DNA from: Chthoniobacteraceae bacterium
GTDB lineage: Bacteria > Verrucomicrobiota > Verrucomicrobiia > Chthoniobacterales > Chthoniobacteraceae
DNA length: 64,000 bases
NCBI GenBank assembly: GCA_947476045.1
Contig: CANJNZ010000006.1
Location: 1-64,000 of the forward strand
Reading direction: 5' to 3'
The position numbers were made by a program, and so were the translations under genes. The notes under the pieces were generated by a model. It saw nothing but the letters and a program-made list of their open reading frames with translations. It was not told the origin of the DNA and did not search any database. Shown here piece after piece: positions 3,946-59,396 of the stretch (position 1 is its first letter; each line of letters starts with the position of its first letter).

Positions 3946-4965
3946 TCATCGCTCCAAAGTGCAGGCGTGGCATGCGAAGCCTGCGCCGAACGAAACGAGC
4001 CACAGATGATCCGGTGTGCTGCCATTTGCTGACAGCGCGCGCTCGGCGGCGAAAAGCACGGATGGACTGCTCATGTTGCCGCACACACGGAGCACTTCAT
4101 CCGCCTCGGTGAGAGCGTGGCCGGGCAATTGTGCGCGAATGGCCGACAGAACATCGCGACCTCCAGCGTGACTGATAATCGTCGGCGCAGCGTGTCCGTT
4201 TGTGCCGGGATAAAGACTCGCGACCGCCTGCGCTGCGACTTCGGGCACTGCGCGATGGAGCTGGTTGCACAGCTTGCCGCCACGATTCACAAAACGGATT
4301 TTTTCCCGTTCCGCAGGCAAGTGCAGCGAACGGAAATCGCCGAAGCGCCAGCCAGCATCGGCGCTGCCATCGAGCACGACTGCCGCCGCGCCATCGCCGA
4401 AAAGACAAAGACTGACGAGCACGCCGGGATCATCGTCTACATAAAAAGCGGCGGAGCAAATTTCCACAGCCACGACTGCGGCGCGATGGCCGGGGTGTGC
4501 TGCTAAATAATTACTCGCAGCGCGCAACGTGGGAATCGCAGCCCCGCAACCAGCGCCTGTGACATCCATGAGATATGCAGCGGGAGAGAGTCCTGCCGAT
4601 TCCGCAATGTGACTGCTTAATCCCGGGCAAAGGTAGCCCGTGCAGGTGCAGACAAAGAGCGCATCCACCGCCCCTACATCCGCCTTGAGCATCGCTGCGC
4701 TGAGTGCCTGCGCTCCGAGTTGCACCGCTTCACGCTCAAAGGCCTCGTTCAAATCCTGCGCGCTGCGATCAAAGATATCATCCAGACTTTCGGCGGCAAA
4801 ATGCCGCTTTTCGATCCCTCCATCGCCAAGCAACACACGTTCGAGAATATCGCGAGAACGTGGTTTCAATCCGCGCACAAAACGCGCATCGCGTAAAGAC
4901 TCCCAGCACTCCCGCTGCGTCCATGAGCGTTCAGGAAGTGCGGTGGCGATGCTGGCAAGTGTCAT
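3946..4965 (-). CDS. Type III polyketide synthase (chalcone/stilbene synthase family)
   Basis: A 339-residue homodimeric-type ketosynthase that condenses malonyl-CoA units on an acyl-CoA starter. The Cys-His-Asn triad is visible: Cys140 in VTGAGCGAA, His266 in IISHAGG, and Asn297 in VCGNMSSPSVLF. The LFGDGAAA stretch (residues 188-195) is also characteristic. The protein is slightly shorter than the usual 350-390 residues. It is preceded on the same strand by an FAD oxidoreductase and a methyltransferase, a trio that recalls the srsABC phenolic-lipid cluster of Streptomyces griseus (type III PKS, methyltransferase, flavoprotein). The product could therefore be a methylated alkylresorcinol, pyrone or quinone-type lipid; the starter unit is unknown. 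Confidence 0.9.
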   Translation of the reverse strand: MTLASIATALPERSWTQRECWESLRDARFVRGLKPRSRDILERVLLGDGGIEKRHFAAESLDDIFDRSAQDLNEAFEREAVQLGAQALSAAMLKADVGAVDALFVCTCTGYLCPGLSSHIAESAGLSPAAYLMDVTGAGCGAAIPTLRAASNYLAAHPGHRAAVVAVEICSAAFYVDDDPGVLVSLCLFGDGAAAVVLDGSADAGWRFGDFRSLHLPAEREKIRFVNRGGKLCNQLHRAVPEVAAQAVASLYPGTNGHAAPTIISHAGGRDVLSAIRAQLPGHALTEADEVLRVCGNMSSPSVLFAAERALSANGSTPDHLWLVSFGAGFACHACTLER

Positions 4966-23400: not shown

Positions 23401-26400
23401 TCACCTGATAACGCCCGGCAATCACCTTGCTGGCCAAAGCGTTGGGTCCCGGTGTGAACGAGGCATTTGCGCCGCCATTCACTCCAAGCAGTAGCGATCC
23501 CGAGTTATTGCCAAGATTTGCGAGGGGCGCCACCTGTCGGAAATCCGCCGCCCCGAAATCTGCGCCTGCCGCGAGACGATACGACCATGACTGCGTGCCC
23601 GCAGCGAGCAGTTGTGCCTCCCACAATGGCTTCACGCCGGGAATATTTGTGTCGATGGGCGGCGCCCCGAATCCGTCGCTGAGGCTTCCGTTGAAAACGA
23701 GATTCCCCGCCGCACGCAATGTCAGGATGCCCGGCTCGCTGCTCGTCGGACCGAAACGGAACGCGCCGAGTGTGGAGTTTGCCAGATCCCAATCGGCGCT
23801 CAATGTGAGGTTGCCAGTGCGATTGATAATTTCAGCACCGGGCCTGATGTGGAGCACGGACGAGAGGTCTGAGTTGTTTGCAAGCAGTTGTCCCTCAATC
23901 GTGGTGGCGTTGTTTCCAAAAGTGATGCCGCTCGACCTCACGTTGCCCTGCACAGTGCTCGATAGTGCTCCACCGCTCGATGTGAGGTCGAAAATTCTGT
24001 ATCCCTCCACGACGATGCTCGATGCGCCATTAATAGTGCCGTTGACTGGGGCCAATGCGAGGTTAGCCCCCCCTGAGGTTTGCGGTGCGCGTAAATGCAG
24101 CGTGCCCGTGGATTGCCCCAGCCCCGCGACTGCCGCAACCGTGAGATCAATCTTCGAGCCGGACTGGATGTCGAGAATGGCCGCGCTATTGATGTTCCCG
24201 TTGATTTGCGAGCCAGCTTCGAGCGAAACAGTTCCACCTTTGCCTGCGTTGTCAAAACTCTGCGCTGCGACCGAGAGCATCGCTGTCGGCGAGAGTGTGA
24301 CGCTTCCACCAGCGATAAGATTGATAACGCCACCTCGCTCGCCCGATGCATCCACATTACCGGTTACCGTGATGGAACCTGTGTCGGCGGAAATGTTGAA
24401 ACGATGGGCCTTTGCCGCACCGTCGAAGAGCACATCGCCGGAGCGCACGCGGAAACTGCGCGTGTCTGTAAACGAAGCGGCATCGAGAACGGAATTGAGC
24501 GAGACAAGACTCGGCGACTCACCGACATCAATCGAGAAAGAGCCGCCCCTAACTCCCTTGGCAAACATCGTGCCTGCGAGAGTAAAATCACCGTGCGGCG
24601 TGACGACAGAGACGCTGCCGGCATTTCCACCGCCCGCTTCCGCTGCGACTCGCAGAGTGCTGTCCGCCAGGAAGCTCACGGAGCCATTATCAGCGAGCAG
24701 ATTGATTTTTCCACCATCGGTGTATTTCACGAGGTCAAAAAATGTTTGCACCTTTCCACCGACATCAAGCCGCCCGCCGATGCTCACATCCCCGCTCGTG
24801 GCGTGAAGCGTCAGCACTCCGCTTGGCAGCATTATGTCACTATTCTCGATGATGCTTGTGCCCTTCAAAGTCAGGCTCGCACCAAGTCCCGCAGTCTTTG
24901 GCGTGGTCGCGCCGCCTGTTGGTGTTTCAAATGTTAGCGAGCCACCGGCAACGATGGACTGCGTTGCAGAGCGAGCCGCAGTGATGAACGGGGTGTTGGC
25001 GACAATGTCACGCTGCGCGGTAAGCCCGCCCACTCCGCTGATGACCATGCCGGATGAGGCGTCGAGTTCCAGCGTGGTGAACTGGTCCACTTTGAGCTGG
25101 TTTTCACCGAGACGAATGGAGCCGGCATGAAATGCGAGTTTTCCAGATGGAGCCACGATAGGGCCGGGCGCACTGCCGTTTGGTGAGTTATCGAGGAGGA
25201 TGTTGGATGCGAAAATATCCAGCGTGCCTCCTCCATTGTTGAAGCCGCGAATTTCGGCTGCATGCAAAGTCAAACTACCATCTGTGCTGAATCGTCCAGC
25301 GCCGTAGAAGTCGAGTGATGTGTAGCTGAGCAAGGAAAGCACTTTTGAGCCTTGGAGCCCCTTGAGTGTCTCGCCTGCGAGCACCAAGCCTGTTGTCGGC
25401 TGGAGAGTTCCCGGATTGTCGAACTGGATGCTGATTTGACCGCTGTTCAAAGCGATGGATGTGCCGGTGAGTGTCGCGCTCGGATCGAGCGATGTCGCGT
25501 AGGTGGAATCCAGCGTGATGCTGGCACCCGAGATATTCGCGCCTGCGCCAATGGTCATTTTCGGAACTGTCGAATTTCCCAGACCGCTTCTCACGATGCG
25601 CGCCGACGGATCGCTCGATACGCGCAACAGCGTTCCATCACCGCTGCCTGCCACTTTTGCATCACCCAGCAGCAGCGTGTCCGCACGACCTCCGAGTCGG
25701 CCAATTTGCTGAATCTCGGCGCCGGGGGCGAGCGTAAGATTATTTTTTGCAACGAGAATGATTTCTGGTCCGCTGAGCGGAGTGCCGGCGTTGTCCAGTG
25801 TCACGTTTTCGGATTTGACATTGATTGTCGTCCCGTCCGCGCCTTCCTTGCGGGTGCCCCCGATGAGCAGGCTCTCCGCGCCAAATTTACTGAGCTGCGC
25901 AGCATTCAAATTCAGCGTGCCTGCACCTCCGCCGCTTCCCGTTGAACTGATCACGATATCCACCGGGCTGCTGATATCCACCAACCCGCCACGTCCGTGT
26001 CCCATACCCTGGGCGGAGACGGAGCCCTGCAATACCATTGCCGTGCTTGCCTGGAAAACAAGGTGGCCCGCGTCAGTCGGCAGACGTGGAACCGTGGTCT
26101 CATTCTGTATCGCGCCAGTGCGCAGGAAATCATTGGCCTGAACCTGATCGTATTCCGAGCGGTTGCGGACAACTTCCGAGGGCGCGACTTCAAATCGTGC
26201 AACCAATGCCTGGACCGTGCGTTCGGTATTGAGGTCGTTGAAACGGTAGCCGGAAACGAGGCTTGAACCTTCAGCCAATGTAACGGTGCCGTAGGGAGTC
26301 CCGCTTTGCGGCGTGACGAGAAATGCGCCCGGCATCAGTGCATAGCGCGCAGGCAGCAGCGTGTAATCTCCCTCAGGCAATCCGTCGCTCGCACCGAGAT

Positions 26401-29400
26401 GCACTCGGTCGCCGATCTTCAGGCTGCTGTTCAAATAACCCGCATCCCCGCCCAGGTTTGTTGCGTTTGAGCTGGGGTTGAAAGGCGCGAACGGCGTGTA
26501 ATTGGAATCGTAATTTGGGATGACCGCAAAGCTTGTTGAGGACGCAAGAATGTCCTTGCTGCCGCCATTGCCGGCGACCCAGCGATAGGCATAGAGGTCG
26601 CCTCCACCCCGTAGATCAATTGAAGAACCCGGTTGTGTGGCGATTCTTGCCGCCGAGAGGTTCACGTTTTTTCCTGCAACGCCACCAGCGGTGATGTCCA
26701 GTCCAGCAGGGTCAATCCACGCTGTGCCGTTCAGTATGATACCATACGGGATGAGCAACTCACCACCGTCCTGCGGGCCATAGGCTGCCACGGATGTGAC
26801 GCTGCGCGAAGTGAGGGTGAGTTGCCTTGTCGTCGCCACGGTCATGCCGGAAACTGGATCGACAGGACCTGTGCCACTGCCATCCCACCCAAGATTAATC
26901 TGGCCGATCGGTGCACGCAGGATGCCATCCTGTTTTATGGTCGAACCATAAATGTTCAGACTGCCGCCTGCCGATAGCGGAAGCTGACGACTGCCTGACG
27001 CAATGAGGGTCACCGAGCCACCGTTGGTGGTGTCGCCTGTTTTGTAATCCGCAGCCGTAATCGTGAAACTCACGGCCGTGGGCGGGTAAATTTGTGCCGC
27101 ACGCATCACGATGTCACCCGCGACACTGAGTGCCCCATCGCCACGGATGTCACCGCCATCCGCAAAAAAGTTTGCCCTGCCTATGCCTTGTAACGAAAGA
27201 CTTCCGATATCGATGAGGGTTGCCTTCACCGTGAGGCTGCCCTTTCCGAAAGTTGGATCGATATAGAAGGGGCGCCCCTCAAACAGGAAGGGGCTTTGCC
27301 GGTCTTGTGGCAGTGCCGGCGGTAGGAAAGGAGTGCCGAGGGTGACGTAAGCTGCGCTGAGATTCACTGCGCTGTCTCCGTAGATAACACCGCCATCCGC
27401 CACGGCGAGTGTGCGCCGCGCATTTATCGAGACAGGCCCTGTGAATTGCACGGTTCCCTTAAGTGCCAGAGAGTCAAATCCTCCCCCGGCGAAGCGATCG
27501 ACCGCGAAATAACCAGTGCCGAAAATCGGGTCACCCTTGGCATCCCGCACTGCGTGACCAATTGCTGTCTGCCCCGCAGCATAAAAACTGACGGGAATGG
27601 TTGCGCCGCTTTGCTTGACCTGCATCGTCACTTCAAGAGGGCTGAGCAGGGTGCTCGTGCCCACTGGAGTAAACCGGCCTGACGAAATTACCAGACTTCC
27701 GCCAAGCGCCGTCGGGCCGCCCGCCGCGCCACGCAGTGTCGCATCCGTGAGAAGTTCCTGTGTCCCGCGCAACGTGATGGTGCCTGCGTCGCTATCAACC
27801 CGCGTGGGGACGAAGCGCGAGGCGTATAGCGACGAGTTTATTCCGCTGTTCACGGGTGTCTGAGACGAAGCCATGGACAGCCCGGTTTCCGGCGCCACGG
27901 CAGGAGCAAGGTCGAGTATCGCACTGGCGCCGGATACGTCGAGCACGGCACCTTTTTCCGCGACGATGTTTCCAGACACGCTGATGCTGCCGCCGGGAAG
28001 AACGGAGCCCGTTCGCGCCCCGAAAATATTCGGCGTATATACCGTCGTGCCCGCCGTGGAGAGGAGGCTTTGCGGCCCGAGATTTACCGTTGGTAGCGCA
28101 AACGGAGAAGGGGAAAGTGCCGGGAAATTTCTGCCGCCGGAAATTGAGATGGAGCCGCCGGGCGCGATGACAGAACCGAGCACAGCCGCAGTATCTCCGG
28201 AAATGTTCACACTGGCCTTTGGATCCGTTTGAATGGAGGAGCCTTTGCCCATCATGAAGTCGCCGCGCACGACCAAATCCAACGGGCTTCCCTTGAATGG
28301 ATCCCTCACACCGACTGCGTTGAATGCGAGGCTGACAGGCGTGCGGAGCGCCTGCGGCAGGACCATCGGAATGAGTTTGATCCCGCCACCCGTCGGAGCG
28401 TGGGCTTCAGCGATGTAATTTTGTGCAACGGGCTCTATCACAGTGCCGGGTGCTATCAACACTCCGGGAATATATTCATTGGGATCGGCTGTCGGCATTC
28501 CAAGGCCGCTGAGTGAGAAACTACCAAAGCCGCCCTGATTAAAGAAATCGGGAGTCAGTAGCAGGGTGTCCGGATTGTCCGTCCTGCCGCCGATCTGAAT
28601 CGCCGGCGCGAGGATCGAAAGCGAACCGCCTTTCGCGCCGGAAAATCCTTTCAGTGTGGAGCCGAGCTTTAGCGTGCCCCCTATAACGGATGCAATATTC
28701 GCATCCTGCCCTGCTTTGATGGTGATGCTGCCGCCATTGCCAAAAGTGCGTTTTCCGGTCGGGCTCAAAACAACGCCACCACTCGCATCCATCTCGCTGC
28801 CCGACGCCAAATCCGCGCTATATCCACTCACAGTGATGCTGCCGCCATCCACTACAAGAGGAAGAGTGAGCGCAGTCGGCGAGGTAATCCGATCATCCAC
28901 AATCAACCCCGCCGCGCTCAACGATGCCATCGCGCCGAGTGTGAAACGACCGCGGGCCTGGTCTGGCGATGGCGTTTTGGCCTCGCCGCCCGGAAGCGAA
29001 TTTAATTTTGAGAATGTGTTGGCTGAAACTTGAAAAGCCGAAAGGCTGATGCTGCCGCCGGGAACGGAAATATTTCCTTCAATGTCGACGTTCGCCCCTT
29101 TGAGCGAGACCGTTCCCTTCGCGAATGCGTTCATCATCACTCCGGCTGGCACTGAAATGTCGCCGTCGCTATTGTCCACGATGAGTGTTCCGAATCCATA
29201 CGCGCCGACCAGATCAGGTGAGAGAACGACGTTTTTCAATCGCTCCTGCTTCAGTGCCTGCGGTTCTCCGGCGTCGTTCAGCGAAAACGGACCGACTGGC
29301 GTCAGATTCGCGTTGCTTTGAAAAACAATATCAGGGGGGGTGGGTGAATAATAAGGCAGCGTTACAATTGATGGATCCTGCGCCTGAAATGTGAGGGAGA

Positions 29401-31828
29401 GGGAACTCATGGCGGGCGGTTCCGTGCGCTGTCTCGGGCCAACGATTGTGCTGCCAAGCAATGTCCCGTCGAGCGCCATGGAAGGCGCCGAGATGGTGAT
29501 GGAGCCGCCCCGTGCTCCCTCGGTGTAGCCCTGCTCGTAGCGGATGGCTGTCAGCGGTAGTGTGTTCGCGAATGTTTTCGTGACACTGTATTTCGGATGA
29601 TTGACTGTGTAAGTGGCCGTGTAAATCCCTTCATAAACACGATCCGGCGTGGCCTGCGAAACATCCACGATGCGCCCGTCGAGAATAACGCGCGAGGTTT
29701 CCACCATCGCACCCGTGTAATTGATGTAACCGCCGGACACATCCACTGCCGAGCCCTTCAGCATGACGATCGAGCCGCCCGCGCTGAGCTTCACGCTGCC
29801 GCCGTCCACGGTGAGTTGTGCTGCCGTCCGCTGGATGATTCCGACATAACCGCGCGCATCAGCCAGAGGCGTGCCGACCCATGTGTAGCCGCCTAATCCA
29901 CCATTCAGCGTAGTATCCCACGGGCCGTGGATGCGCAAGTCGAGCATCAGCGTATTTCCACGGAACGGGCCGTTGCGCTGGACCGGCGAATCGGCCACCT
30001 CGGAACCGAGGACTTTAACCGCAAGAATGTTCTCCGTCACCGGCGCCTCCACTGCGGTTGACCCGGCGACGCTGATGTGTGCGCCTTCATCGAGGTAAAT
30101 CTGGCCGCCCGAGGCAATGAACTGGCTGATGGGTTTCGTAGTGGAAGGTGTGAACTTCCATGTGCCCGCGCTTACATCCACGACTGCGTTCGGAGCGATC
30201 AACATGGAATTATTTGCAAAATGCACTGCCTGGCCCTGCACGACGACCTGGGAGCGCAGGGCGAGTTGCGTGCCCACGACCTTCTGTGAGCTGTCCGCTT
30301 CAGGGAGTATTTGTGACACACTATCCGGCCCAAAAGTCACGGTGCCTGCATTTCTGGACAAAAACGGCGGCACGTTTGGTAGATTGATCGGGTCGTATGC
30401 TACGTTGCCGACTGCGTTGTAATTTGCGCGAAGATCAATGCGCCCGTTCAGCGAAACCGATGTGGAACTGGCGATGACCCCAAGCTGGTTCACATTCATG
30501 CCCGTCATCGTTACGTTCGCGCGCGGCGCATCGAGCAGACCGGTATTTGTCACGGTGCCCGCGTAGCGCGCGGGCGCGGGCACTGGCGGTTGACCTTCCA
30601 CAGGCGCGGGTGCGGGCCTGGCGACTGCACCGACAAAAACATCGAGACCACGCAAGGTCGGGTCGCTTGATAAATGCGCGGAGACGCCCACTTGCAGTCC
30701 CGCTGCAAGGATGGCCTGCCCGTCCGGCGTGGAGATCGTCCCTTCGTTTCTCACGTTTGGCCCGATGAGCGCGACGCGTCCGCCAACATGCTCCGGCGTC
30801 GTGGGGCTGTTGATGACTGCGCCCTTTTGAACGACGACATCACCCAGCTTTCCGCCCAGTGTATTGGGCGCGGGCGGCGGCGTGAATGCCGGCGTTCCAT
30901 TTGCGCCGGATTCGAGCGGCAATGCTGAAAACAGGAACTGGACATCGGGGTTATTGAGCAGGCCGCGCGCTATCAGGTTGTCATTGATTGGCAGCGATGA
31001 AGCGAAGAGGCCGTGCAGATTGATCTGGCTCGTGCCGCCGAAAAGAATGCCGTTCTGGTTGATGAGATAGACTTGGCCGGGCGCTTCGATCCTCCCGAGG
31101 ATTTGCGACGGCTGGCCGGATGGATCGGTGATTTTGTTAAATGCTGTCCACTGTGTCTTGTTGGCCTTGCCTGCACTTTGATCGAATCGCAGCGTCGTAT
31201 CTTTGCTGATGTTGAACGTTTTCCAGTTCAGCACTGCCTGCGGTTTAAGCTGGCGAATGGTTACTAGCGCCTTGCCGTTCTTTTCTGTTTGTGACGGCAG
31301 ACCAGCACCTACCCAGAGTTTCGCGTCTTCGCCGACCTGTGGATTTGCGAGATCTGCGGGAACACCGGGTGCAACTTGAAGCCCACCCACTCCGAGTCCA
31401 TTCGGAACAGCAGGCAGAGTCCTGCCGGCAAAACTCAGCACAGGTTTCGCAGCTGCTGCCGTGCGCGCAGCGTCCTGCATCGCCTTGACAGAATTTATCG
31501 CCTGCGTCGTTCGCGCAAGAGTGTCCTCGGCGTTTTGTTTTGCAGCCACGGCTGCCGCGTTGATGGTGCCCCCCTGCTGAGCACCGCCACTGCGCCCGCC
31601 AAGCGTCGTGCCACCACGCAGGATGTCGCCCGCATAGGCGCCTGCACTTCCGAAAAGAACCAGCGCAGCCGCGAGTGCGATACGCGACGAAATACGCGGA
31701 ACGCCAACACCAAAGCAGGCAAACGGCTGCTGCGGTCCCACAGCACGGCCTGTGTTCCTTTGCTGTTCACGCAGGTATGCAGAAAGAGGGATTTCCAGCG
31801 GGTTTTCGTTGGGCTGTTTGCTCGTCAT
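20405..31828 (-). CDS. Giant filamentous-haemagglutinin-like exoprotein (TpsA)
   Basis: A 3807-residue secreted adhesin of two-partner secretion. An extended N-terminal signal (basic region, then hydrophobic residues 50-66 ending GAYA) is followed by an Ala/Gln-rich helical insert (85-128). The TPS secretion domain then starts near residue 165, with NWKTFNI (201-207) and NQNGILFGG (257-265) as its recognition motifs. The next 3000 residues are beta-helix-type repeats with many GGSI.I.A, DG..V and G.V.L.A units. The C-terminal part resembles the DUF3739 region of similar proteobacterial proteins (YAGGDVSGLTL, LAGHDITDIG, ASGRDI). It ends with a Pro-rich linker and VEVLGYGGGDDSG. No toxin-like tail is seen. 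It is the last gene of a nine-gene operon that also encodes its likely transporter. Confidence 0.93.
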   Translation of the reverse strand: MTSKQPNENPLEIPLSAYLREQQRNTGRAVGPQQPFACFGVGVPRISSRIALAAALVLFGSAGAYAGDILRGGTTLGGRSGGAQQGGTINAAAVAAKQNAEDTLARTTQAINSVKAMQDAARTAAAAKPVLSFAGRTLPAVPNGLGVGGLQVAPGVPADLANPQVGEDAKLWVGAGLPSQTEKNGKALVTIRQLKPQAVLNWKTFNISKDTTLRFDQSAGKANKTQWTAFNKITDPSGQPSQILGRIEAPGQVYLINQNGILFGGTSQINLHGLFASSLPINDNLIARGLLNNPDVQFLFSALPLESGANGTPAFTPPPAPNTLGGKLGDVVVQKGAVINSPTTPEHVGGRVALIGPNVRNEGTISTPDGQAILAAGLQVGVSAHLSSDPTLRGLDVFVGAVARPAPAPVEGQPPVPAPARYAGTVTNTGLLDAPRANVTMTGMNVNQLGVIASSTSVSLNGRIDLRANYNAVGNVAYDPINLPNVPPFLSRNAGTVTFGPDSVSQILPEADSSQKVVGTQLALRSQVVVQGQAVHFANNSMLIAPNAVVDVSAGTWKFTPSTTKPISQFIASGGQIYLDEGAHISVAGSTAVEAPVTENILAVKVLGSEVADSPVQRNGPFRGNTLMLDLRIHGPWDTTLNGGLGGYTWVGTPLADARGYVGIIQRTAAQLTVDGGSVKLSAGGSIVMLKGSAVDVSGGYINYTGAMVETSRVILDGRIVDVSQATPDRVYEGIYTATYTVNHPKYSVTKTFANTLPLTAIRYEQGYTEGARGGSITISAPSMALDGTLLGSTIVGPRQRTEPPAMSSLSLTFQAQDPSIVTLPYYSPTPPDIVFQSNANLTPVGPFSLNDAGEPQALKQERLKNVVLSPDLVGAYGFGTLIVDNSDGDISVPAGVMMNAFAKGTVSLKGANVDIEGNISVPGGSISLSAFQVSANTFSKLNSLPGGEAKTPSPDQARGRFTLGAMASLSAAGLIVDDRITSPTALTLPLVVDGGSITVSGYSADLASGSEMDASGGVVLSPTGKRTFGNGGSITIKAGQDANIASVIGGTLKLGSTLKGFSGAKGGSLSILAPAIQIGGRTDNPDTLLLTPDFFNQGGFGSFSLSGLGMPTADPNEYIPGVLIAPGTVIEPVAQNYIAEAHAPTGGGIKLIPMVLPQALRTPVSLAFNAVGVRDPFKGSPLDLVVRGDFMMGKGSSIQTDPKASVNISGDTAAVLGSVIAPGGSISISGGRNFPALSPSPFALPTVNLGPQSLLSTAGTTVYTPNIFGARTGSVLPGGSISVSGNIVAEKGAVLDVSGASAILDLAPAVAPETGLSMASSQTPVNSGINSSLYASRFVPTRVDSDAGTITLRGTQELLTDATLRGAAGGPTALGGSLVISSGRFTPVGTSTLLSPLEVTMQVKQSGATIPVSFYAAGQTAIGHAVRDAKGDPIFGTGYFAVDRFAGGGFDSLALKGTVQFTGPVSINARRTLAVADGGVIYGDSAVNLSAAYVTLGTPFLPPALPQDRQSPFLFEGRPFYIDPTFGKGSLTVKATLIDIGSLSLQGIGRANFFADGGDIRGDGALSVAGDIVMRAAQIYPPTAVSFTITAADYKTGDTTNGGSVTLIASGSRQLPLSAGGSLNIYGSTIKQDGILRAPIGQINLGWDGSGTGPVDPVSGMTVATTRQLTLTSRSVTSVAAYGPQDGGELLIPYGIILNGTAWIDPAGLDITAGGVAGKNVNLSAARIATQPGSSIDLRGGGDLYAYRWVAGNGGSKDILASSTSFAVIPNYDSNYTPFAPFNPSSNATNLGGDAGYLNSSLKIGDRVHLGASDGLPEGDYTLLPARYALMPGAFLVTPQSGTPYGTVTLAEGSSLVSGYRFNDLNTERTVQALVARFEVAPSEVVRNRSEYDQVQANDFLRTGAIQNETTVPRLPTDAGHLVFQASTAMVLQGSVSAQGMGHGRGGLVDISSPVDIVISSTGSGGGAGTLNLNAAQLSKFGAESLLIGGTRKEGADGTTINVKSENVTLDNAGTPLSGPEIILVAKNNLTLAPGAEIQQIGRLGGRADTLLLGDAKVAGSGDGTLLRVSSDPSARIVRSGLGNSTVPKMTIGAGANISGASITLDSTYATSLDPSATLTGTSIALNSGQISIQFDNPGTLQPTTGLVLAGETLKGLQGSKVLSLLSYTSLDFYGAGRFSTDGSLTLHAAEIRGFNNGGGTLDIFASNILLDNSPNGSAPGPIVAPSGKLAFHAGSIRLGENQLKVDQFTTLELDASSGMVISGVGGLTAQRDIVANTPFITAARSATQSIVAGGSLTFETPTGGATTPKTAGLGASLTLKGTSIIENSDIMLPSGVLTLHATSGDVSIGGRLDVGGKVQTFFDLVKYTDGGKINLLADNGSVSFLADSTLRVAAEAGGGNAGSVSVVTPHGDFTLAGTMFAKGVRGGSFSIDVGESPSLVSLNSVLDAASFTDTRSFRVRSGDVLFDGAAKAHRFNISADTGSITVTGNVDASGERGGVINLIAGGSVTLSPTAMLSVAAQSFDNAGKGGTVSLEAGSQINGNINSAAILDIQSGSKIDLTVAAVAGLGQSTGTLHLRAPQTSGGANLALAPVNGTINGASSIVVEGYRIFDLTSSGGALSSTVQGNVRSSGITFGNNATTIEGQLLANNSDLSSVLHIRPGAEIINRTGNLTLSADWDLANSTLGAFRFGPTSSEPGILTLRAAGNLVFNGSLSDGFGAPPIDTNIPGVKPLWEAQLLAAGTQSWSYRLAAGADFGAADFRQVAPLANLGNNSGSLLLGVNGGANASFTPGPNALASKVIAGRYQVIRTGTGDIEVAAGRDVQFLNVFASIYTAGTQVAEPTLGGTFDTPSTNLLGSPLGALGAIQDRSPYAVQYTLGGGNVTISAQGDIAHYTRNSANLLVPDSQRELPSNWLYRRGYVDPVTGQFGVSKFGEVASTTWWVNFSNFFQSVGALGGGNVTMIAGNNVSNVDAVIPTNARMPKGVPNAAGLVELGGGDLIVSAGHDIDGGVYYVERGTGTLDAGFSIHTNATRSPSLTNIAREAPYAAETWLPTTLFAGKSSFDVEARGDLLLGPMANAFLLPQGYSNTYWYKTYFSTYSADSSVSVASLTGDVTFRSSATMPNTGSQAGSSTPLLDAWLQNVLLLSASGTSTATPTAAYYQPWLRTVEDKMAPFAAATSLRPPTLRTTAFSGDINLVGDLTLSASPRGTVDLAAAGSINGLQINGINNINGSDVKVWGPSQINLSDSNPASMPGIGAPYGYQTIAGVESRFANTTDIQFLKFVDKLYNESGSTLGAQGSVQNKQALHAPGVLHSGDTDPVHLYAGGDVSGLTLFSSKSARILAGHDITDIGLYIQNIAEDDISVVASGRDIVAFNPNSPLLVTARTEGNALNFGVAAQSGDLQISGPGMLQVLAGRDLDLGVGRNPGAPADTNLGLYSIGNSRNPFLPFDGAGIIAAAGIGGPTDLANSALDFTTFTEQVLTPDTINRYLAEIDTKNTGTTDVFTKLPSEKQAGLALDIFYRVLRDAGRDFSTKGNYDSGYSAIDALFPTKTKWKGDISLTSREIKTKSGGDISLIAPGGGLVVGFNATGAQAQDQGILTESGGNISIFTDQSVTVGTSRIFTLRGGNEIIWSSKGDIAAGAASKTVQSAPPTRVVIDPQSADVQTDLAGLATGGGIGVLATVAGVKPGDVDLIAPAGTIDAGDAGIRVSGNLNIAANSVLNTSNIQVAGSSAGTPAAPSVSAAPVSAPPPPPAPTSGAAGTTDAGPKREENHPAPPPEVPSIIVVEVLGYGGGDDSGSSAGTL

Positions 31829-31892: not shown

Positions 31893-32597
31893 TTACGGTT
31901 TTGCGGCGGCGGTTTTGCTCCCGGCAGGTTTCCCATCAGCAGGGCGGTCATTTGGCGATGGTTTTTGTGTCGTTCCATCGAGCTTGATGCGTTGTGTAGC
32001 GAGGTCGCCGCCGAACTCATCCACCATGCTCTGCAAACGTGCGCGCGTGATGCCGACGAATGGCTCACGGGCAGTGAGTGCAGTGCCGAGACCGAACTTT
32101 TCGTAGCGACTGAGCACTTCATTGCTGATTGCGAACATCTTCGCGTTTTTCGAGCGATGATCCGCAACAGTGTCCTTGAGCACACGGTTTTCAGCGGCGA
32201 GCTTGGAACGCTCGGCTTCGGTTTTCTTTGCCAGTGTGTCCGCGTGTTTTCCGAAACTGTCCGCCTTCACGAGTAAGTCCTTCGTCGCGGAAATTTCCTT
32301 TTCCCGCGCAGCGATATCGGCGTTCAACTTCTCCGCTTGTTCCTTTGCGGCCTGCTTATCCCCATCCGTGGTTTTGACGAGTTTCGCGAACGCCTCTTCG
32401 CTGGTCTTCAGCTTCGCTTCGAGTTCTGTCTTTTCGTTCTGCAATGTCACCTGCGCAGTCTCCGCAGCGTTGAGTCGGAGCGTGAGGGACTTGAGCTGCT
32501 CGCGCATCCGCGCCTCGTTGGGAGACGGGCTTTGCTGTGCGTAAATGCCAGTAGCGCCGAAGAAGAGGACGCTGGTCAAAATGGTGATGATTTTCAT
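31893..32597 (-). CDS. Exported coiled-coil protein of the secretion operon
   Basis: A 234-residue periplasmic protein. I start at the ATG at 32597 because it begins a signal peptide (MKIITILTSVLFFGATGIYAQQ) and lies only 2 bases beyond the porin stop codon; the frame extends upstream within the porin gene without sense. Residues 35-165 are almost entirely heptad-like (Leu/Ala with Lys/Glu/Gln) and predict a long coiled coil. A conserved-looking block YEKFGLGTALTAREPFVGITRARLQ follows, then a Pro/Lys/Ala-rich tail. I do not know the family. Position between the porin and the adhesin suggests a periplasmic chaperone, spacer or tether for the secretion route, which is inference. Confidence 0.75.
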   Translation of the reverse strand: MKIITILTSVLFFGATGIYAQQSPSPNEARMREQLKSLTLRLNAAETAQVTLQNEKTELEAKLKTSEEAFAKLVKTTDGDKQAAKEQAEKLNADIAAREKEISATKDLLVKADSFGKHADTLAKKTEAERSKLAAENRVLKDTVADHRSKNAKMFAISNEVLSRYEKFGLGTALTAREPFVGITRARLQSMVDEFGGDLATQRIKLDGTTQKPSPNDRPADGKPAGSKTAAAKP

Positions 32598-34626: not shown

Positions 34627-35379
34627 TTAGTTCGGACGGCGTGCGCTGAGACGCATTACGATGGGCATCGGCATATCGCTCGGTGGCGGCTGGCTGAGTT
34701 GCAACCCGTTGAGAACTTCGTCGCGAATTGCAGCGTCGAGCGCGCTGTCGCCAGTCGAGGAACCGAGCGTAGCGCGTGTCACTCGTCCCGTGGAATCAGC
34801 CCAAATTCGCACTTCGATCTTCATGCTCGCCATGCGTGTGCGTGGGTTGTTGCGCAGTGCGTCTGTGATCCGCGCCTGCACCTGTGCAGCGTAGCCACCG
34901 AACTTCGATTTATTGTTCGTGACTGGACGCTTGAAAAAAGTGTTTCGATTTCCAGCAGCGATCTGAATGCCACCGCTAGCCGGTCCTTTCACAGCCGTCG
35001 CAACAGCAGGCTCTGGTGGAGCCTCATCTTCTTTCTCCTGCTCCTCCTTCACCATCTCCTCCTTCATTTGTGTGGGTGGTGGTGGTGGCGGTGGTGGTGG
35101 TGGCGGCGGAGGCGGAAGAACCGAAACCATCGTGACGTTCTCCTTTTTGCCACCGCCCGTCTCGGCCTTGGAGAAGACTTTCACTGCAAAAATGATCCCT
35201 GTGATCGTGAGTCCGCTGACGATGAGCGGAGCGAGCCATTTCCGAAAGCCGGTCGCTTTCTCATCCTCATCACCCCAGTCGTCATGGGCGTCCGGAGCAG
35301 GCACCGCCTTCGGCGCATGTTGCGCAACGGGCTTTTCGAGTGTCGCGATATTGCCTTCGTTATCGTGGGTTGAGTTCAT
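34627..35379 (-). CDS. TonB-family energy transducer
   Basis: A 250-residue TonB-like protein. It has a 48-residue cytoplasmic N terminus, one membrane helix (about residues 49-69), a run of about 14 prolines (89-102) and an acidic/basic Glu-Lys stretch that would span the periplasm. The C-terminal domain (about 160-250) reads GGYAAQVQARITDALRNN, then IEVRIWADSTGRVTRATLGSSTGD, then ALDAAIRDEVLNG, the order found in TonB C-terminal domains. The long cytoplasmic N-terminal extension is unusual against E. coli TonB, which has a very short one. It lies directly after two exbD genes in the secretion operon and should carry energy from that complex to an outer-membrane partner. Confidence 0.9.
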   Translation of the reverse strand: MNSTHDNEGNIATLEKPVAQHAPKAVPAPDAHDDWGDEDEKATGFRKWLAPLIVSGLTITGIIFAVKVFSKAETGGGKKENVTMVSVLPPPPPPPPPPPPPPTQMKEEMVKEEQEKEDEAPPEPAVATAVKGPASGGIQIAAGNRNTFFKRPVTNNKSKFGGYAAQVQARITDALRNNPRTRMASMKIEVRIWADSTGRVTRATLGSSTGDSALDAAIRDEVLNGLQLSQPPPSDMPMPIVMRLSARRPN

Positions 35380-35392
35380 GGGAATAGATGTG

Positions 35393-35803
35393 TCAGCGGC
35401 GGGCTCCTGATGTCGCGAGGCCGACTTGTTTGATTCCGAGTTTCACAACGACGCCTAGTGCGTCCGTGACTTTTTCATACTGCGTAGCGCTGCTGCCTTT
35501 GATGATTACGGGCACGTCCGGATTCTCAGCCTTCGCCTGCGTGAGTCGCATTTCCAGCGAAGCGAGTGTGACCGGCTCCTTGTCAAAATACATCGCCCCC
35601 GCGTCATCCACGCTGATGACTTTGAGTTTGCTCTTCTCATCCGTTTTTTTCTGCGGCGCATTGCTGCCACGAGGGATGCCGGCTTTGATTCCCTGAATCG
35701 TCGCCGTGGTCATCAGGATGAAAATGACCAGCAGCACGTAGGCGAGATCGAGCATCGGTGTGATGTTGATGTCGTCGTAAGGTTTGTCGTCTTGAACTTG
35801 CAT
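35393..35803 (-). CDS. ExbD/TolR-family protein, second copy
   Basis: A 136-residue biopolymer-transport protein with one membrane helix and a periplasmic domain. The membrane aspartate that carries protons in ExbD is Asp19 in ITPMLDLAYVLL. The first 31 residues are identical to those of the neighbouring upstream copy, and the DNA at the two starts is nearly identical too, whereas the periplasmic parts have diverged (VISVDDAGAMYFDKEPVTL here). This points to tandem duplication followed by separation of the soluble domain, or to repeated conversion of the membrane part. Only 8 bases separate the two genes. Confidence 0.93.
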   Translation of the reverse strand: MQVQDDKPYDDINITPMLDLAYVLLVIFILMTTATIQGIKAGIPRGSNAPQKKTDEKSKLKVISVDDAGAMYFDKEPVTLASLEMRLTQAKAENPDVPVIIKGSSATQYEKVTDALGVVVKLGIKQVGLATSGARR

Positions 35804-35811
35804 CGTCGTGG

Positions 35812-36213
35812 TTATTTCGAGGCTTTGGTTGCGATTCCGACCTGCGTGATGCCGACCTGGCCGATGACGTTGAGCACGTCCATGATCGCCTGATACTGCG
35901 CTACGCGGTCGCCTTTAAGAATGATGGGCACGTTGGGATACTCCGCCTTGATTTGCGCGAGCCGTGATTCGAGCTCGCCGAGGGTGACGGGCGTTGTATC
36001 GAGGAAAACTTGCCCTGCACCATTGATGGTGATCCCCTTCGCCTTTTTCTCAGCAAGACTCTTGGTGGCCTCGCTGCCCGCAGGCAAATCAGCTTTCAAA
36101 CCCTGCACCGCCGCTGTGCACATGAGAATGAAGATGACGAGCAGCACGTAGGCGAGATCCAACATCGGAGTGATGTTGATGTCGTCGTAAGGCTTGTCGT
36201 CTTGAACTTGCAT
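35812..36213 (-). CDS. ExbD/TolR-family protein, first copy
   Basis: A 133-residue ExbD-type protein with the same N terminus as its downstream neighbour and the conserved membrane Asp19. The periplasmic domain reads GITINGAGQVFLDTTPVTL and then YPNVPIILKGDRVAQYQ, as expected of the ExbD fold. It follows the ExbB fusion gene by 20 bases. With that protein and TonB it should make a proton-driven motor in the inner membrane. Two different ExbD chains could form a mixed dimer in the ExbB pore, as reported for some systems, but that is inference. Confidence 0.93.
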   Translation of the reverse strand: MQVQDDKPYDDINITPMLDLAYVLLVIFILMCTAAVQGLKADLPAGSEATKSLAEKKAKGITINGAGQVFLDTTPVTLGELESRLAQIKAEYPNVPIILKGDRVAQYQAIMDVLNVIGQVGITQVGIATKASK

Positions 36214-36233: not shown

Positions 36234-38069
36234 TTACTCGCCCTTGTCCTTGTAAAATTCGGCCATCTTCGTGACGAACTCATCAATGAAGATGTGCATG
36301 TCGTCCTTCGCGTCCTTCACGCGCGAGAGAATGTAGTTGTAGCCAAATAGCGAAGGAATAGCGACGGCGAGACCGGCGACGGTCGCGAGCAACGCAGCAG
36401 CGATACCGGGCGCGATGGCGTTCACGTTCACTTCGCCGGCGGCGGCCACGGCGGCGAAGGTAATCATCACACCGACGACTGTTCCGAGCAGACCGAGGAA
36501 CGGGCCGCCGGAAATGCAGATGGTGAGCAGCACGATCAGCTTGTTGATTTTCTGCGTCTCGCGAACGAGCCCGCCGTCGAGCGCAGCGCGGATTGCCTGA
36601 ATGCTGCGGCCTGCGAGACCGCGACGCACTCCCACTTCGCGATCCACGGCCATACGGTGGCGGATTTCTTCCACGCCGATGTGGTAGATGCGATACACCG
36701 ACGAACGGCGCAGGCTTTTTGCGTTCTCTTTGGTCACGCGCCCGCCGAGCGATTTGGAAGTCTCAACGTCATCGCTATCGAGAACGGTGAGGTCGGATGC
36801 AACATGGCGCCACTCCCGCATGAAAATCTCATTTCCCTTCGCAATTCCGTTCAAATAACGCGTTTTGCTGACCATCACATACCAGCTCATCACCGCCATG
36901 ATCGCGAGGATGATGATGACCGCCCAACCGTCAAAAGTGAGGTTGGCGATGATGACGGCGAACGTGCCGGTCGTCAGCCAGCTCAGCCAATTGGTTGGCT
37001 TCTCATCGGCGCCAAGCAAGATGGTCTTCGGGCCTTTCTCGCCGCCTTGCGAAGCTGCTGCGAGTCCGATCCAGCCAGCGGGGCGTGCGACTTTGTGGAT
37101 TTGCAGTTCGTCCAGTTCACCAGTGAATGGTGTTGCTCCAGAAGTTTTATCGCCGCCGAGGATGAAATTGCCGTTGATGGCGGGAAGGCCCGCCCCGACA
37201 GCGTTGGCGACTTCGCCATTTACGAAAAGCGTGGTCTTTGTGCCATCGCTCATCACTGCGATGTGTGCCCAGGAACCTGGCTGCAAGGGCTGCGGTGCAG
37301 CGGCGCGCTGGCCGGAAATTTCGACATAGGGCGCGCCTTTATCCACGCCGACTACGAATGAGTTTTTGTCGTCGCGGCGACTGAGGATGACGCCATTTGG
37401 CTGCGTTGCCTTCGCCCACACGGTGATCGTCGTTGGCGAATTACCCGTCCACACCAGCGAGCCGGATGCGGCAATCGGCACGTTGATTTTCCCGTTGAAA
37501 GCGACGCCGCTGCCGATTTGCGCACCGTCGAGTTTTCCGCCTGCGGATTCTGTGGTGTTGTTGCTCTTCGTGGAGTCACCGGCGTTCTGTCCGCTCTCAT
37601 TGAAATGGAATACGAGCACGGTGTCCGCGTCGAAGCTGCCCTTTGCATCATCAGCCTTCGCCGCCTTCGCATCGTTCGAGCCAAAATACATCCAGAACGT
37701 CGTTTTTGCGTTTGGTTTTACGTCGGGCAGCTTCACCCACACGTAGGCTTCGCCCATCAACGCATCAATTTTTTCGACGTGATGCGTGAGCAGCGTCTTG
37801 CCGTCCTCGGCAACAAAACGGAGGTCGCTCAAATCTTCCTTTGCCAGCGGATAGCCATCGCCGAAAAGTCGCACGAGCACCGTGCTCGCACCGATGGGCT
37901 CGGCGACATTTCCGCCAGCCGCCGTGGTGTCCACGGTGACTTTCTTGCGCATCGTCCACGCGCCATCCCACCAGTCACCGGCATGGGCGGCTGCACTGAG
38001 CAAAAGCCCGGCGACAGCGACGGCCATCAGTTTCATCCAGTTTGTTTTCGTTGTGCGTGCGATTTCCAT
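36234..38069 (-). CDS. DUF2341-LamG-ExbB fusion: proton channel with large periplasmic lectin-like domain
   Basis: A 611-residue protein that joins an ExbB/TolQ/MotA channel to an exported domain. Residues 1-30 are a signal peptide ending AHA. Residues 32-135 match DUF2341 (WWDGAWTMRKKVTVD, then VWVKLPDV, FWMYFGS). Residues 145-340 are a LamG/concanavalin-like domain (ITVWAKA, GSWAHIAVMSDGTKTTLFVNGE, GELDELQIHKVARP). Three membrane segments follow at about 382-402, 512-543 and 553-575, with GGPFLGLLGTVVGVM and APGIAAALLATVAGLAVAIP as the ExbB/TolQ hallmark. The usual ExbB has no such periplasmic N-terminal part. It starts 30 bases after the TpsB stop codon, tying the motor to this secretion route. 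Confidence 0.92.
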   Translation of the reverse strand: MEIARTTKTNWMKLMAVAVAGLLLSAAAHAGDWWDGAWTMRKKVTVDTTAAGGNVAEPIGASTVLVRLFGDGYPLAKEDLSDLRFVAEDGKTLLTHHVEKIDALMGEAYVWVKLPDVKPNAKTTFWMYFGSNDAKAAKADDAKGSFDADTVLVFHFNESGQNAGDSTKSNNTTESAGGKLDGAQIGSGVAFNGKINVPIAASGSLVWTGNSPTTITVWAKATQPNGVILSRRDDKNSFVVGVDKGAPYVEISGQRAAAPQPLQPGSWAHIAVMSDGTKTTLFVNGEVANAVGAGLPAINGNFILGGDKTSGATPFTGELDELQIHKVARPAGWIGLAAASQGGEKGPKTILLGADEKPTNWLSWLTTGTFAVIIANLTFDGWAVIIILAIMAVMSWYVMVSKTRYLNGIAKGNEIFMREWRHVASDLTVLDSDDVETSKSLGGRVTKENAKSLRRSSVYRIYHIGVEEIRHRMAVDREVGVRRGLAGRSIQAIRAALDGGLVRETQKINKLIVLLTICISGGPFLGLLGTVVGVMITFAAVAAAGEVNVNAIAPGIAAALLATVAGLAVAIPSLFGYNYILSRVKDAKDDMHIFIDEFVTKMAEFYKDKGE

Positions 38070-38099: not shown

Positions 38100-39812
38100 T
38101 TAAAAGTCCGCCCACAGGCGGAAATTGACGCGCGTGTCGTGCGCTTGCGTGGTGCCTATCGTGGTGAGCGGCAGGGCCAGTTCGACGATGCCGTGGAAGT
38201 GATCGAAGAACTCCACTTCGCTGCCGATGCCGAAGCTCGCTAAGCGGTAGGAGGAATCCTGCTCCGGCAAAGTGTCGTGCAGCGTGAGCGTCCCGGCGTC
38301 TGCAAAGGCGTAGAATCGCCATTCGTTGCCCGTGCTTTCTTCGACCTCCTCCTCCACCCCTTGGAGGTTCTTCTTCTTCACCATACGCTTTGTTTTCAAA
38401 AGCGACGGAGTGCGGAGTTCAAATGTGCCGAAAATTGCATTGTCGCCGAGCGCCTCTGCTTCCTTGTAGCCGCGAGCCGTGCCCATGCCGCCGCCGCCAA
38501 ATTGCTCGCTGTTCACCAGCGGCTGATCCGAGGCCTGCCCCTGCAATTTCAAGAACATTTCCCAGCCGCGCCCAAGCTCCTGCGTGTGCGAAATGTCGCC
38601 ACGGAAATAGATGAAATTCCCATCCGCTCCGAAGCGATTGCGATCCAGCTCCGACGCTTCGCTGCCCGTGCCTCGGATGCCGAGCGTGACTCCGGCGCTG
38701 GCGGTCGTTGCGCCTGTATCCACGCGTTTCGTTTTTCCGGGATTTGCCGCGTCCGCCACGTCGCGACTGTGCAGCCATGTTCCATCCCATGTGGCGCTGA
38801 CCGGGTAGTAAGTGATGGGCGTTTTATCCGTCGTGAGGCCGATGGTGACTGCCTGATCAAAGCGCTTCCAATCCAGACCGAGGCTGAACGATTGGTAAAA
38901 GCCATCCTGCGACGGCAAAGTGAACATCCCGCGAAGACCGAAAATTTCCCCGCGCCCAGCAGATGCCACACTGCCAAGCGTCGAAACATTACTGTCCTGC
39001 TTCGTGCCCGTGAGCATGAGGCTGAACGAATCAATGTCGCGGAAACGCCAGAGGTAATATGCGGAGAACACCTTCACCTCGCTCGTGTCCTGCGGCGACA
39101 TCTGGTAGCTCGCACCAATCGTGTGGCCGACCTGCCAGAGGTTTGCGTAACTGAATGATCCACTGAGACGGAGGTCGGTCGTGTTGGCGCTCGCGCGGTT
39201 GTTTAGTTCGACGTTGCCATGAAATGGGGATTTGTCCTTCACGAGCAACTCCACATCGTAAAGCCCGGGTTCGTCTTCGCGTGCTACAAGCTTCGGCTGC
39301 ACACTGCGGTCGGGGTGCTTATTCAATGCCGCGATATCCCGCTGCACGTCGTTGAAATTGATCACTTTTCCCTCCGCTAAAGAGAGCGCCTTGGCCTTGA
39401 TTTCACTCGGCAGGAAATATCGTGCGCCCTTCACGCGAAGGCTCGCCACTTTTCCATCGATGACCTCCAGCAGCACGACTCCACCATTACCGCTCTGCTC
39501 CGCCACCATCTGGACACGCGTTCCGCTGAAACCTTTTCCATCATACACCTTTTGAAGCGCATTAGCCGCGTTCTGAATGTCAGCCACCGTCCGGCCCGGC
39601 CCTAGAAATGGATAGACCGCCTCTTCAATCTCAATACGAGGGATATGCTTCGCCCCGAGAACCCGAAACTCGCGGATGAACATCGTCTTCTCCTGCTCTT
39701 CTGCACTAAGCTGCGTAGTGCAGAGCAGCGCTGAAAGAGCCGACCACAGAGCCACGCGCATCCCCCTGCGGTTTGCAGGCGTAGAGATTTGAAAGCGAGC
39801 GCTCAGGAACAT
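38100..39812 (-). CDS. TpsB/FhaC-family outer-membrane transporter
   Basis: A 570-residue two-partner secretion transporter. I use the ATG at 39812, which starts an n-region followed by a hydrophobic signal ending QLSA near residue 40; an alternative ATG at 39761 gives a more compact signal peptide. POTRA domains follow: FIREFRVLGAKHI...VYPFLGPGRTVADIQNAANALQKVYDGKGF (about 47-105), then the second with VASLRVKGARYF and GKVINFNDVQRDIAALN. From about residue 200 the chain is a beta-barrel (NVELNNRASANTTDLRLSGSFSYANLW is the typical first barrel region), with the conserved GRGEIFGLRG and a C-terminal strand ending LWADF. It is the expected exporter for the giant adhesin encoded at the far end of the same operon. 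Confidence 0.93.
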   Translation of the reverse strand: MFLSARFQISTPANRRGMRVALWSALSALLCTTQLSAEEQEKTMFIREFRVLGAKHIPRIEIEEAVYPFLGPGRTVADIQNAANALQKVYDGKGFSGTRVQMVAEQSGNGGVVLLEVIDGKVASLRVKGARYFLPSEIKAKALSLAEGKVINFNDVQRDIAALNKHPDRSVQPKLVAREDEPGLYDVELLVKDKSPFHGNVELNNRASANTTDLRLSGSFSYANLWQVGHTIGASYQMSPQDTSEVKVFSAYYLWRFRDIDSFSLMLTGTKQDSNVSTLGSVASAGRGEIFGLRGMFTLPSQDGFYQSFSLGLDWKRFDQAVTIGLTTDKTPITYYPVSATWDGTWLHSRDVADAANPGKTKRVDTGATTASAGVTLGIRGTGSEASELDRNRFGADGNFIYFRGDISHTQELGRGWEMFLKLQGQASDQPLVNSEQFGGGGMGTARGYKEAEALGDNAIFGTFELRTPSLLKTKRMVKKKNLQGVEEEVEESTGNEWRFYAFADAGTLTLHDTLPEQDSSYRLASFGIGSEVEFFDHFHGIVELALPLTTIGTTQAHDTRVNFRLWADF

Positions 39813-39885
39813 AGTGCGACAACTTAAAAGCGCTTTCGTGACAGTCGTATGGCAGAGCGGAAACGATCCAGTGAAAGTGAGCGCT

Positions 39886-40575
39886 CTACGCATCCAAACG
39901 GTAGCCGAACCCACGCACCGTCTGAATATGCTCCGCAGCAGAGCCGAGTTTATCGCGCAGGCGGCGCAAATGCGTGTCCACAGTGCGAATCTCGATCTCT
40001 GTCTCCGCCCCCCACACAATCCCTACCAATTCATCCCGAGAGAAAACGCGCCCCGGCTGACGAAACAGCGCGGCGAGCAACTTGAATTCAGCAGCCGTCA
40101 AATCCACGCGCTTCCCCTTCACCTTCACCTCATGCCCATCGAGGTCGAGAATGATATCGCCCACACTTGAATAGCGGACGACCGGCGCAGGTCCCGTGCG
40201 ACGGGACAGGATGGATTTCACACGCAGCGTCAGCTCGCGCGGACTGAAAGGCTTCGTCACGTAATCGTCCGCTCCAAGTTCGAGGCTCACAATGCGATCC
40301 ACTTCATCCTTCCGCGCCGTAAGCATGATAATCGGGATATGCGCAGTGCGCGGTTCACTTTTCAGCGCACGCAAGACATCGGTGCCACTCATGTGCGGCA
40401 TCATCAAATCCAGCACCATCAACGCCGGCTCATTCTTGCGCGCCTTTTCCAGCGCCTCCCGCCCATCGCTGGCGTGCGTCACTTGATAACCCGCCGCCGT
40501 CAGATTCTGCGAAACCAGCTTCACGACATCCTCCTCATCGTCCGCCACCAAAATCTGCTGAATCAAAGCGCTCAT
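39886..40575 (-). CDS. OmpR/PhoB-family response regulator heading the secretion operon
   Basis: A 229-residue DNA-binding regulator. The receiver domain covers residues 6-120, with the acidic pair DDEED (12-16), the phosphorylation site Asp56 in LMVLDLMMP, and the Lys in VTKPFSP. The winged-helix output domain covers about 130-228 (VDLTAAEFKLLAALFRQPGRVFSRDELV, then RTVDTHLRRLRDKLG and the C-terminal hairpin VRGFGYRLDA). I start at MSALIQQ because the family begins there. No histidine kinase is encoded near. It lies 73 bases upstream of the TpsB gene on the same strand and may control the operon; its target sites are unknown. Confidence 0.92.
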   Translation of the reverse strand: MSALIQQILVADDEEDVVKLVSQNLTAAGYQVTHASDGREALEKARKNEPALMVLDLMMPHMSGTDVLRALKSEPRTAHIPIIMLTARKDEVDRIVSLELGADDYVTKPFSPRELTLRVKSILSRRTGPAPVVRYSSVGDIILDLDGHEVKVKGKRVDLTAAEFKLLAALFRQPGRVFSRDELVGIVWGAETEIEIRTVDTHLRRLRDKLGSAAEHIQTVRGFGYRLDA

Positions 40576-52554: not shown

Positions 52555-52590
52555 AGTCGTCTTCGTGTTCAGAGTTTCGTTGTGCGGGGA

Positions 52591-54435: not shown

Positions 54436-54550
54436 CGTAGTGAGGTCTTCGGGGTGATAGTTACTTTGTTTTAAATTGGTTCTTAGGCGGAAACGGCGGG
54501 CGTAATGGTGTGGCGTTCGGGAAAAGGCAATCTCATTGCTGTGTTCGTCG

Positions 54551-59261: not shown

Positions 59262-59396
59262 AAAGGCACTCCAAAATGCTCTTCGCCTTTCCATCAACCG
59301 AATTCAGATTCCTTCTAAAGTATAACCATTGCGATGGTGATCACCCGCAATTCTCTGCGTCAGCTTTCACCGCCCCTCATCCGTCTCCAAACTCCA

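Follow-up and report, generated by a model that had tools for sequence, protein, structure and literature searches.

The closest known system to the locus described here is the PUMA3/pdt locus of Pseudomonas aeruginosa, which has the gene order pdtA-phdA-pdtB-exbB2-exbD2-tonB4-PA0696 (PMC7035377, PMC4971064, PMC2729926), and of which the exbB2-exbD2-tonB4 genes have been described as a putative TonB system that awaits characterisation (PMC7035377). The pdtA and phdA promoters of P. aeruginosa contain pho boxes that are bound by PhoB, and the phdA box drives pdtB, exbB2, exbD2, tonB4 and PA0696 onward (PMC4971064); an insertion in tonB4 (PA0695) gave no virulence phenotype in zebrafish, and neither did tpsA (PMC2729926). 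At the protein level, DUF2341 and DUF3450 have been reported as N-terminal appendages of non-flagellar GIT-type A subunits with a function that was called open, and while the DUF2341 class described here is tied to the two-partner secretion (TPS) of DUF3739 exoproteins, the passages considered from that source give no gene context (PMC12505986). Both the presence of DUF2341 on ExbB-type A subunits and the pdt-type gene set are thus already known and unexplained, as far as described in those passages (PMC12505986) and for the P. aeruginosa genes (PMC7035377). New are the linkage to DUF3739 exoproteins across phyla, the absence of receptors, the C-terminal motif of TpsA and the substitution in the third transmembrane helix (TM3) of the channel.

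Two other systems share part of this organisation. The Vibrio protein TtpC is ExbB-like with a large periplasmic part, and like the fused ExbB it represents a Ton system with an added part, but TtpC serves siderophore uptake, works beside a normal ExbB and carries another appendage. It is an extra essential component of the Vibrio TonB2 system (PMC6957404). The Hxu haem system also pairs a TPS exoprotein with an outer-membrane protein, in this case a haem receptor, according to the parts of the source considered (PMC4873976), although Hxu has the classical receptor HxuC and targets host haem, whereas the locus described here has a plugless porin and what is very probably a dedicated motor.

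The window, i.e. the whole stretch of 64,000 nt that was analysed, derives from a Chthoniobacteraceae bacterium (Verrucomicrobiota), and its features are listed in Table 1. A sequence-only reading of the window had claimed a fusion of an ExbB proton channel to DUF2341 and LamG domains, with a signal peptide and a large periplasmic part ahead of the ExbB helices. A Pfam search found all three domains above their gathering cut-offs, the minus-strand reading frame (38069-36234) starts with ATG and has no internal stops, and a signal-like segment at residues 12-30 is followed by about 350 residues up to TM1. With the usual ExbB topology, in which the N-terminus is out, this span between signal peptide and TM1 would be periplasmic. 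The C-terminal part, for which a match to ExbB had been anticipated, matches TolQ/ExbB by sequence and has the predicted three-helix fold of this family (Z ~17-18), while hydrophobic stretches within residues 524-574 fit TM2 and TM3 by hydropathy. As the full-length AlphaFold model has a low mean pLDDT of 61, only its domain matches were used. The architecture therefore bears out the description of a motor subunit with a large periplasmic head.

The same reading had raised the possibility that a frameshift or assembly error had merged two separate genes, and indeed the genome is a draft of 123 contigs. However, the same fusion is present in G174, a genome of the same class that consists of one contig, and on complete plasmids from other phyla. 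We rejected a split gene in view of these orthologues in complete records, and because the full architecture recurs in more than 20 Verrucomicrobiota loci as well as on proteobacterial plasmids, the probability that the fusion is an artefact is negligible.

Table 1. Features of the fused ExbB gene and its surroundings in the 64,000-nt window.
Feature	Position	Strand	Basis
PhoB-like response regulator gene, immediately upstream	39886..40575	-	best NCBIfam model PhoB, 248 bits, below cut-off of 296
Pho box CTGCCATACGACTGTCAC, 14/16 consensus positions	39838..39855	-	sole match in window at <=3 mismatches
TpsB, ShlB/FhaC-type transporter with POTRA; ATG at 39761 probable	38100..39761	-	Pfam ShlB, POTRA_2; start from L009/L010 alignment
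DUF2341-LamG-ExbB fusion, 611 aa, motor A subunit	36234..38069	-	intact ORF, Pfam, full-length orthologues
Probable signal peptide, residues 1-31, cleavage site estimated	37977..38069	-	hydrophobic segment 12-30, then AHA-GD
DUF2341, residues 79-158	37596..37835	-	Pfam PF10102, 56 bits, E 5e-15
LamG/concanavalin-like domain (Laminin_G_3), residues 205-334	37068..37457	-	Pfam PF13385, 65 bits, E 8e-18
TM1 of channel, residues 383-401	36867..36923	-	hydropathy; C-terminal (cytoplasmic) flank K/R-rich
MotA_ExbB channel core, residues 486-591	36297..36614	-	Pfam PF01618, 89.5 bits vs cut-off of 22.9, E 2e-25
ExbD copy 1, Asp19 conserved	35812..36213	-	Pfam PF02472
ExbD copy 2	35393..35803	-	Pfam PF02472
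TonB-like protein, poly-proline linker and TonB_2 C-terminus	34627..35379	-	Pfam PF13103
Porin_5 outer-membrane porin with N-terminal helical segment	32600..34603	-	Pfam PF16930, 668 bits
Secreted/periplasmic coiled-coil protein	31893..32597	-	orthologues in most loci
TpsA, 3807-aa filamentous haemagglutinin-type exoprotein, TPS and DUF3739 domains	20405..31828	-	Pfam PF05860, PF12545
TpsA C-terminal motif PSIIVVEVLGYGG, TonB-box-like	20441..20479	-	conserved near TpsA C-terminus in two phyla

The proton path of ExbBD has been assigned to a triad of D25, T148 and T181 (PMC12965293). In the family alignments, T530 (TM2) and T563 (TM3) are invariant in all 30 fused ExbBs and Asp19 is kept in all 29 ExbD orthologues; this threonine pair, the ExbD aspartate and the three-helix fold are shared with ExbB/TolQ of known structure. 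The fused proteins differ from these by the extra periplasmic residues, and also at the position of the TM3 glutamate of TolQ (GIAEAL), which aligns with A558 of the window protein (approximately 36396-36398, minus strand) and is Ala, Ser or Gly in 30/30 fused ExbBs. This glutamate is common in the MotA/TolQ/ExbB family and was not treated as family-defining, and a literature search on it found no paper with the terms used; at the same position, the canonical paralogues L003, L004 and L006 from the own genome have Glu, and L001 has Gln. With the triad present and the TM3 glutamate replaced in every member, the fused channel looks active, yet distinct enough to form its own subfamily.

On the minus strand, the genes are ordered PhoB-like regulator, TpsB, fused ExbB, ExbD, ExbD, TonB, Porin_5, coiled-coil protein and TpsA, and directly upstream of the operon the PhoB-like regulator is accompanied by a gene resembling FAD oxidoreductases; no ECF sigma/anti-sigma genes were noticed next to them. 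The eight genes from TpsB to TpsA look like a single operon, since they are separated by short gaps only (30, 20, 8, 13, 23, ~2 and 64 nt, in this order). The succession of TpsB, ExbB, ExbD, TonB and porin is common to this locus and the pdt locus, as is a Pho box (near-consensus here, PhoB-bound in pdt), whereas the locus described here differs in having two ExbDs, a tpsA gene that closes the operon and an adjacent PhoB-like regulator, and in the absence of YbjN and PPIase genes from the operon. The tandem ExbDs (35393-36213) are identical over their first 31 residues (85/93 nt) and have diverged over the rest, and many relatives have a single ExbD. The TonB of the operon is a TonB_2 match and is absent from the PF03544 TonB_C matches, hence a PF03544 search is uninformative on this protein. 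The coiled-coil protein matched no Pfam family above cut-off; it contains a REPF.G..R motif and is itself conserved in most loci, and PA0697 of P. aeruginosa may be its counterpart.

The fusion is not unique to the window. Full-length relatives were found throughout the order (43-94% identity). Further ones, with 36-49% identity across 92-94% of the length, are located on 11 plasmids or chromids from alpha-, beta- and gammaproteobacteria; in the five complete plasmids that were checked (Klebsiella, Methylosinus, Cupriavidus, Aquabacterium and Methylomagnum), Pfam identified all three domains. The order TpsB-ExbB-ExbD (one or two)-TonB-Porin_5-coiled coil-TpsA is kept in approximately 25 Verrucomicrobiota loci, and with small changes in Methylosinus, Cupriavidus, Aquabacterium and Klebsiella; a single Methylomagnum plasmid has the three parts (motor genes, TpsB-TpsA pair and porin) at separate places. 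In Methylosinus, vreAIR-type ECF sigma/anti-sigma genes adjoin the module. The Klebsiella plasmid locus consists of TpsA, TpsB, ExbB, ExbD, TonB, porin, a hypothetical gene, YbjN, PPIase, a second hypothetical gene and LysR, with an ECF sigma gene upstream. Since the fused head is present in this locus and almost every gene is in the same place as in the P. aeruginosa pdt locus, PA0693 by analogy probably carries a DUF2341-LamG head as well. The whole module is present on a Klebsiella quasipneumoniae plasmid which is predicted to be conjugative (L037), and a K. pneumoniae plasmid (H11) holds the fusion, the exoprotein and the porin.

With regard to co-occurrence, the fusion and a DUF3739 exoprotein were both found in the identical five of 144 near-complete genomes of the phylum, an overlap with a chance probability of ~2e-9 when the genomes are treated as independent, which through shared ancestry they are not. 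Among 38 nearer relatives, the exoprotein was present in 21 of the 24 genomes in which the fusion is complete or partial versus none of the 14 that lack it, and the three fusion genomes lacking the exoprotein (G005, G006 and G032) have fragmented assemblies, with 280-750 contigs each. The 11 fusion plasmids all hold the DUF3739 exoprotein TpsA and the porin, the latter being found on 12 plasmids in total. The link of the fused ExbB with the exoprotein is thus supported by strict gene order and by co-occurrence; DUF3739 was not named anywhere in the literature searched.

A search of the own genome (a 96.8%-complete draft) for the TonB-dependent receptor barrel (PF00593) and plug (PF07715) gave no matches, while the positive controls E. 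coli, Caulobacter and Bacteroides all did. With no receptor barrel or plug found in the genome, this is a motor without a visible classical client. The fused protein could have been an ordinary extra ExbB for the TonB-dependent receptors of the cell, with a merely decorative head, as its adjoining genes encode ExbD and TonB and there are eight MotA_ExbB matches in the genome. We rejected this explanation because no receptors were found in the draft genome, and this together with the near-perfect co-occurrence with DUF3739 exoproteins makes it very improbable. The short gaps within the operon, the conserved gene order, the co-occurrence, the lack of receptors and the invariant proton-path residues all argue that the fused ExbB is instead the dedicated motor of its module, which we consider very likely. 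Our preferred reading goes further, with a probability of roughly 0.6: the fused ExbB would supply the channel (A subunit) of a Ton motor dedicated to a pdt-type TPS module, and act on an outer-membrane client belonging to that module. Also in favour of this reading are the Pho box at tpsB, the PhoB-bound pho boxes at the pdt promoters and the conserved C-terminal motif of TpsA.

The Pho box CTGCCATACGACTGTCAC precedes tpsB, and with up to three mismatches allowed it is the one match observed in the window versus 0.27 expected. In the 4.37-Mb genome, two Pho boxes were found with up to two mismatches, compared with none for a reversed control pattern. From these sequence features, phosphate starvation probably induces the operon via PhoB. 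The box at tpsB is clear only in the closest relatives L009 and L010 and weak or absent in other orthologues, so that a Pho box as a general trait of all orthologues is not supported. The second genomic Pho box (L081, G000 C47:1358-1375) is located ~65-82 nt ahead of the probable start codon (ATG) of a Porin_O_P gene, which resembles genes for phosphate-selective porins.

In the preferred reading, we infer that five ExbB chains surround ExbD, and proton flow via T530 and T563 of ExbB and D19 of ExbD would set the TonB encoded by the operon in motion across the periplasm. The client would be an outer-membrane part of the module rather than a classical TonB-dependent receptor, either TpsB with the exoprotein, which we prefer, or Porin_5. 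On the periplasmic side, the motor would be ringed by a lectin-type collar of the five DUF2341-LamG heads, which could dock the client or a neighbouring glycan, and thereby target or gate the motor. For the client itself our choice is a tentative one, with TpsA/TpsB somewhat short of even odds, and with the porin and something else altogether each being less likely than that, and about equally so.

TonB boxes are DTIVVTA-like strands, and the C-terminus of TpsA contains a Pro-rich stretch and the motif PSIIVVEVLGYGG, which resembles such boxes and hence is a candidate client site. In generalised form this motif, PSIxxVEVLGYGG, reads P-S-(I/V/T)-x-x-V-(E/R/Q)-(V/I)-(L/I/V)-G-(Y/F)-G with some drift, and it is found near the C-terminus in most of 26 exoproteins from Verrucomicrobiota and alpha-, beta- and gammaproteobacteria. 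In HMW1, HxuA and the FhaB prodomain the C-terminus is retained in the periplasm (PMC5422565), and by analogy an exoprotein C-terminus held there could be reachable by TonB. With regard to TpsB, a TonB box was also considered and rejected, as there was no conserved candidate near its N-terminus. One could envisage two-partner secretion driven by the proton-motive force, in which TonB grips the PSIxxVEVLGYGG strand of the periplasmic TpsA C-terminus and pulls, holds or releases it, with the lectin-headed ExbB ring docking the secreting complex, but this detailed version is in our view distinctly unlikely. Several observations count against the preferred reading or its client: the literature search found no experiment tying ExbB2/TonB4 to PdtA secretion, the channel is without the TM3 glutamate of TolQ, and the linkage of Porin_5 is nearly as tight as that of TpsA, which leaves the choice of TpsA/TpsB as client tentative. 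Type V secretion has also been described as independent of an electrochemical gradient (PMC5422565).

Secretion could instead be passive, with the exoprotein acting as a surface binder of a phosphorus-bearing substrate and Porin_5 as a Ton-powered entry port, similar to the pairing of a TPS exoprotein with a haem receptor in HxuA/HxuB/HxuC, as far as the source describes it in the parts considered (PMC4873976). Such nutrient capture fits with the operon having a Pho box and an adjacent PhoB-like gene, with the presence of the porin on the same 11 plasmids, and with Methylomagnum having alkaline phosphatase genes close to the fusion. However, the absence of plug matches from the whole genome means that the porin has no plug, its conserved N-terminal NVTINLI segment runs into a probable helix and is not a clear TonB box, and the porin of Methylomagnum does not adjoin the motor genes; we therefore regard nutrient capture as possible but rather unlikely.

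Returning to the fused motor subunit of the preferred reading, the window protein is 67% identical to its proteobacterial counterparts in TM2-TM3, 42% in DUF2341 and 34% in LamG. When folded alone, the head gave a mean pLDDT of 71.6, and the model matched AbnA domain 4 and CBM40-type lectin domains (Z 15-18), mainly on its LamG part; matches to toxin domains were discarded as reflecting the shared jelly-roll fold only. The sequence-only reading had also suggested that the head could contact the exoprotein, glycan or peptidoglycan directly. The lectin-type fold of the model is compatible with glycan binding but is no proof of it, and the heads probably make up a ring in the periplasm that serves for docking or binding. 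The sole other DUF2341 match found in the genome is a secreted 1026-aa protein (L052:596-3676, G000 C82), which combines DUF2341-LamG with a SASA carbohydrate esterase domain and the gene of which, judged by eye, adjoins a hexosaminidase-like gene. This is consistent with the head being a module borrowed from glycan-active exoenzymes.

In Ton/Tol motors, anchoring is usually ascribed to the ExbD/TolR side. The DUF2341-LamG head might nevertheless serve as an anchor, binding peptidoglycan or another periplasmic glycan and so holding the motor in place, which would agree with the similarity to carbohydrate-binding domains and with the esterase domain on the other DUF2341-LamG protein. Against this, a common fold reveals no ligand, LamG is less conserved than DUF2341 in the Proteobacteria, and no known peptidoglycan-binding family was matched, and we consider an anchor improbable.

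Type V secretion is taught as being powered by nothing beyond folding, and the module raises the question whether such export or uptake is powered. A motor which travels with one class of TPS across at least two phyla, and which occurs here in a genome with no detectable TonB-dependent receptors, hints strongly that either some two-partner secretion is powered, or TonB has clients other than classical receptors.

Elsewhere in the window there are several GH20 hexosaminidase genes (50293-54618, minus strand, and 59334-63311, plus strand), one of which is fused to a GH32 domain (1325 aa), and a type III polyketide synthase-like gene is located at 3946-4965 on the minus strand.
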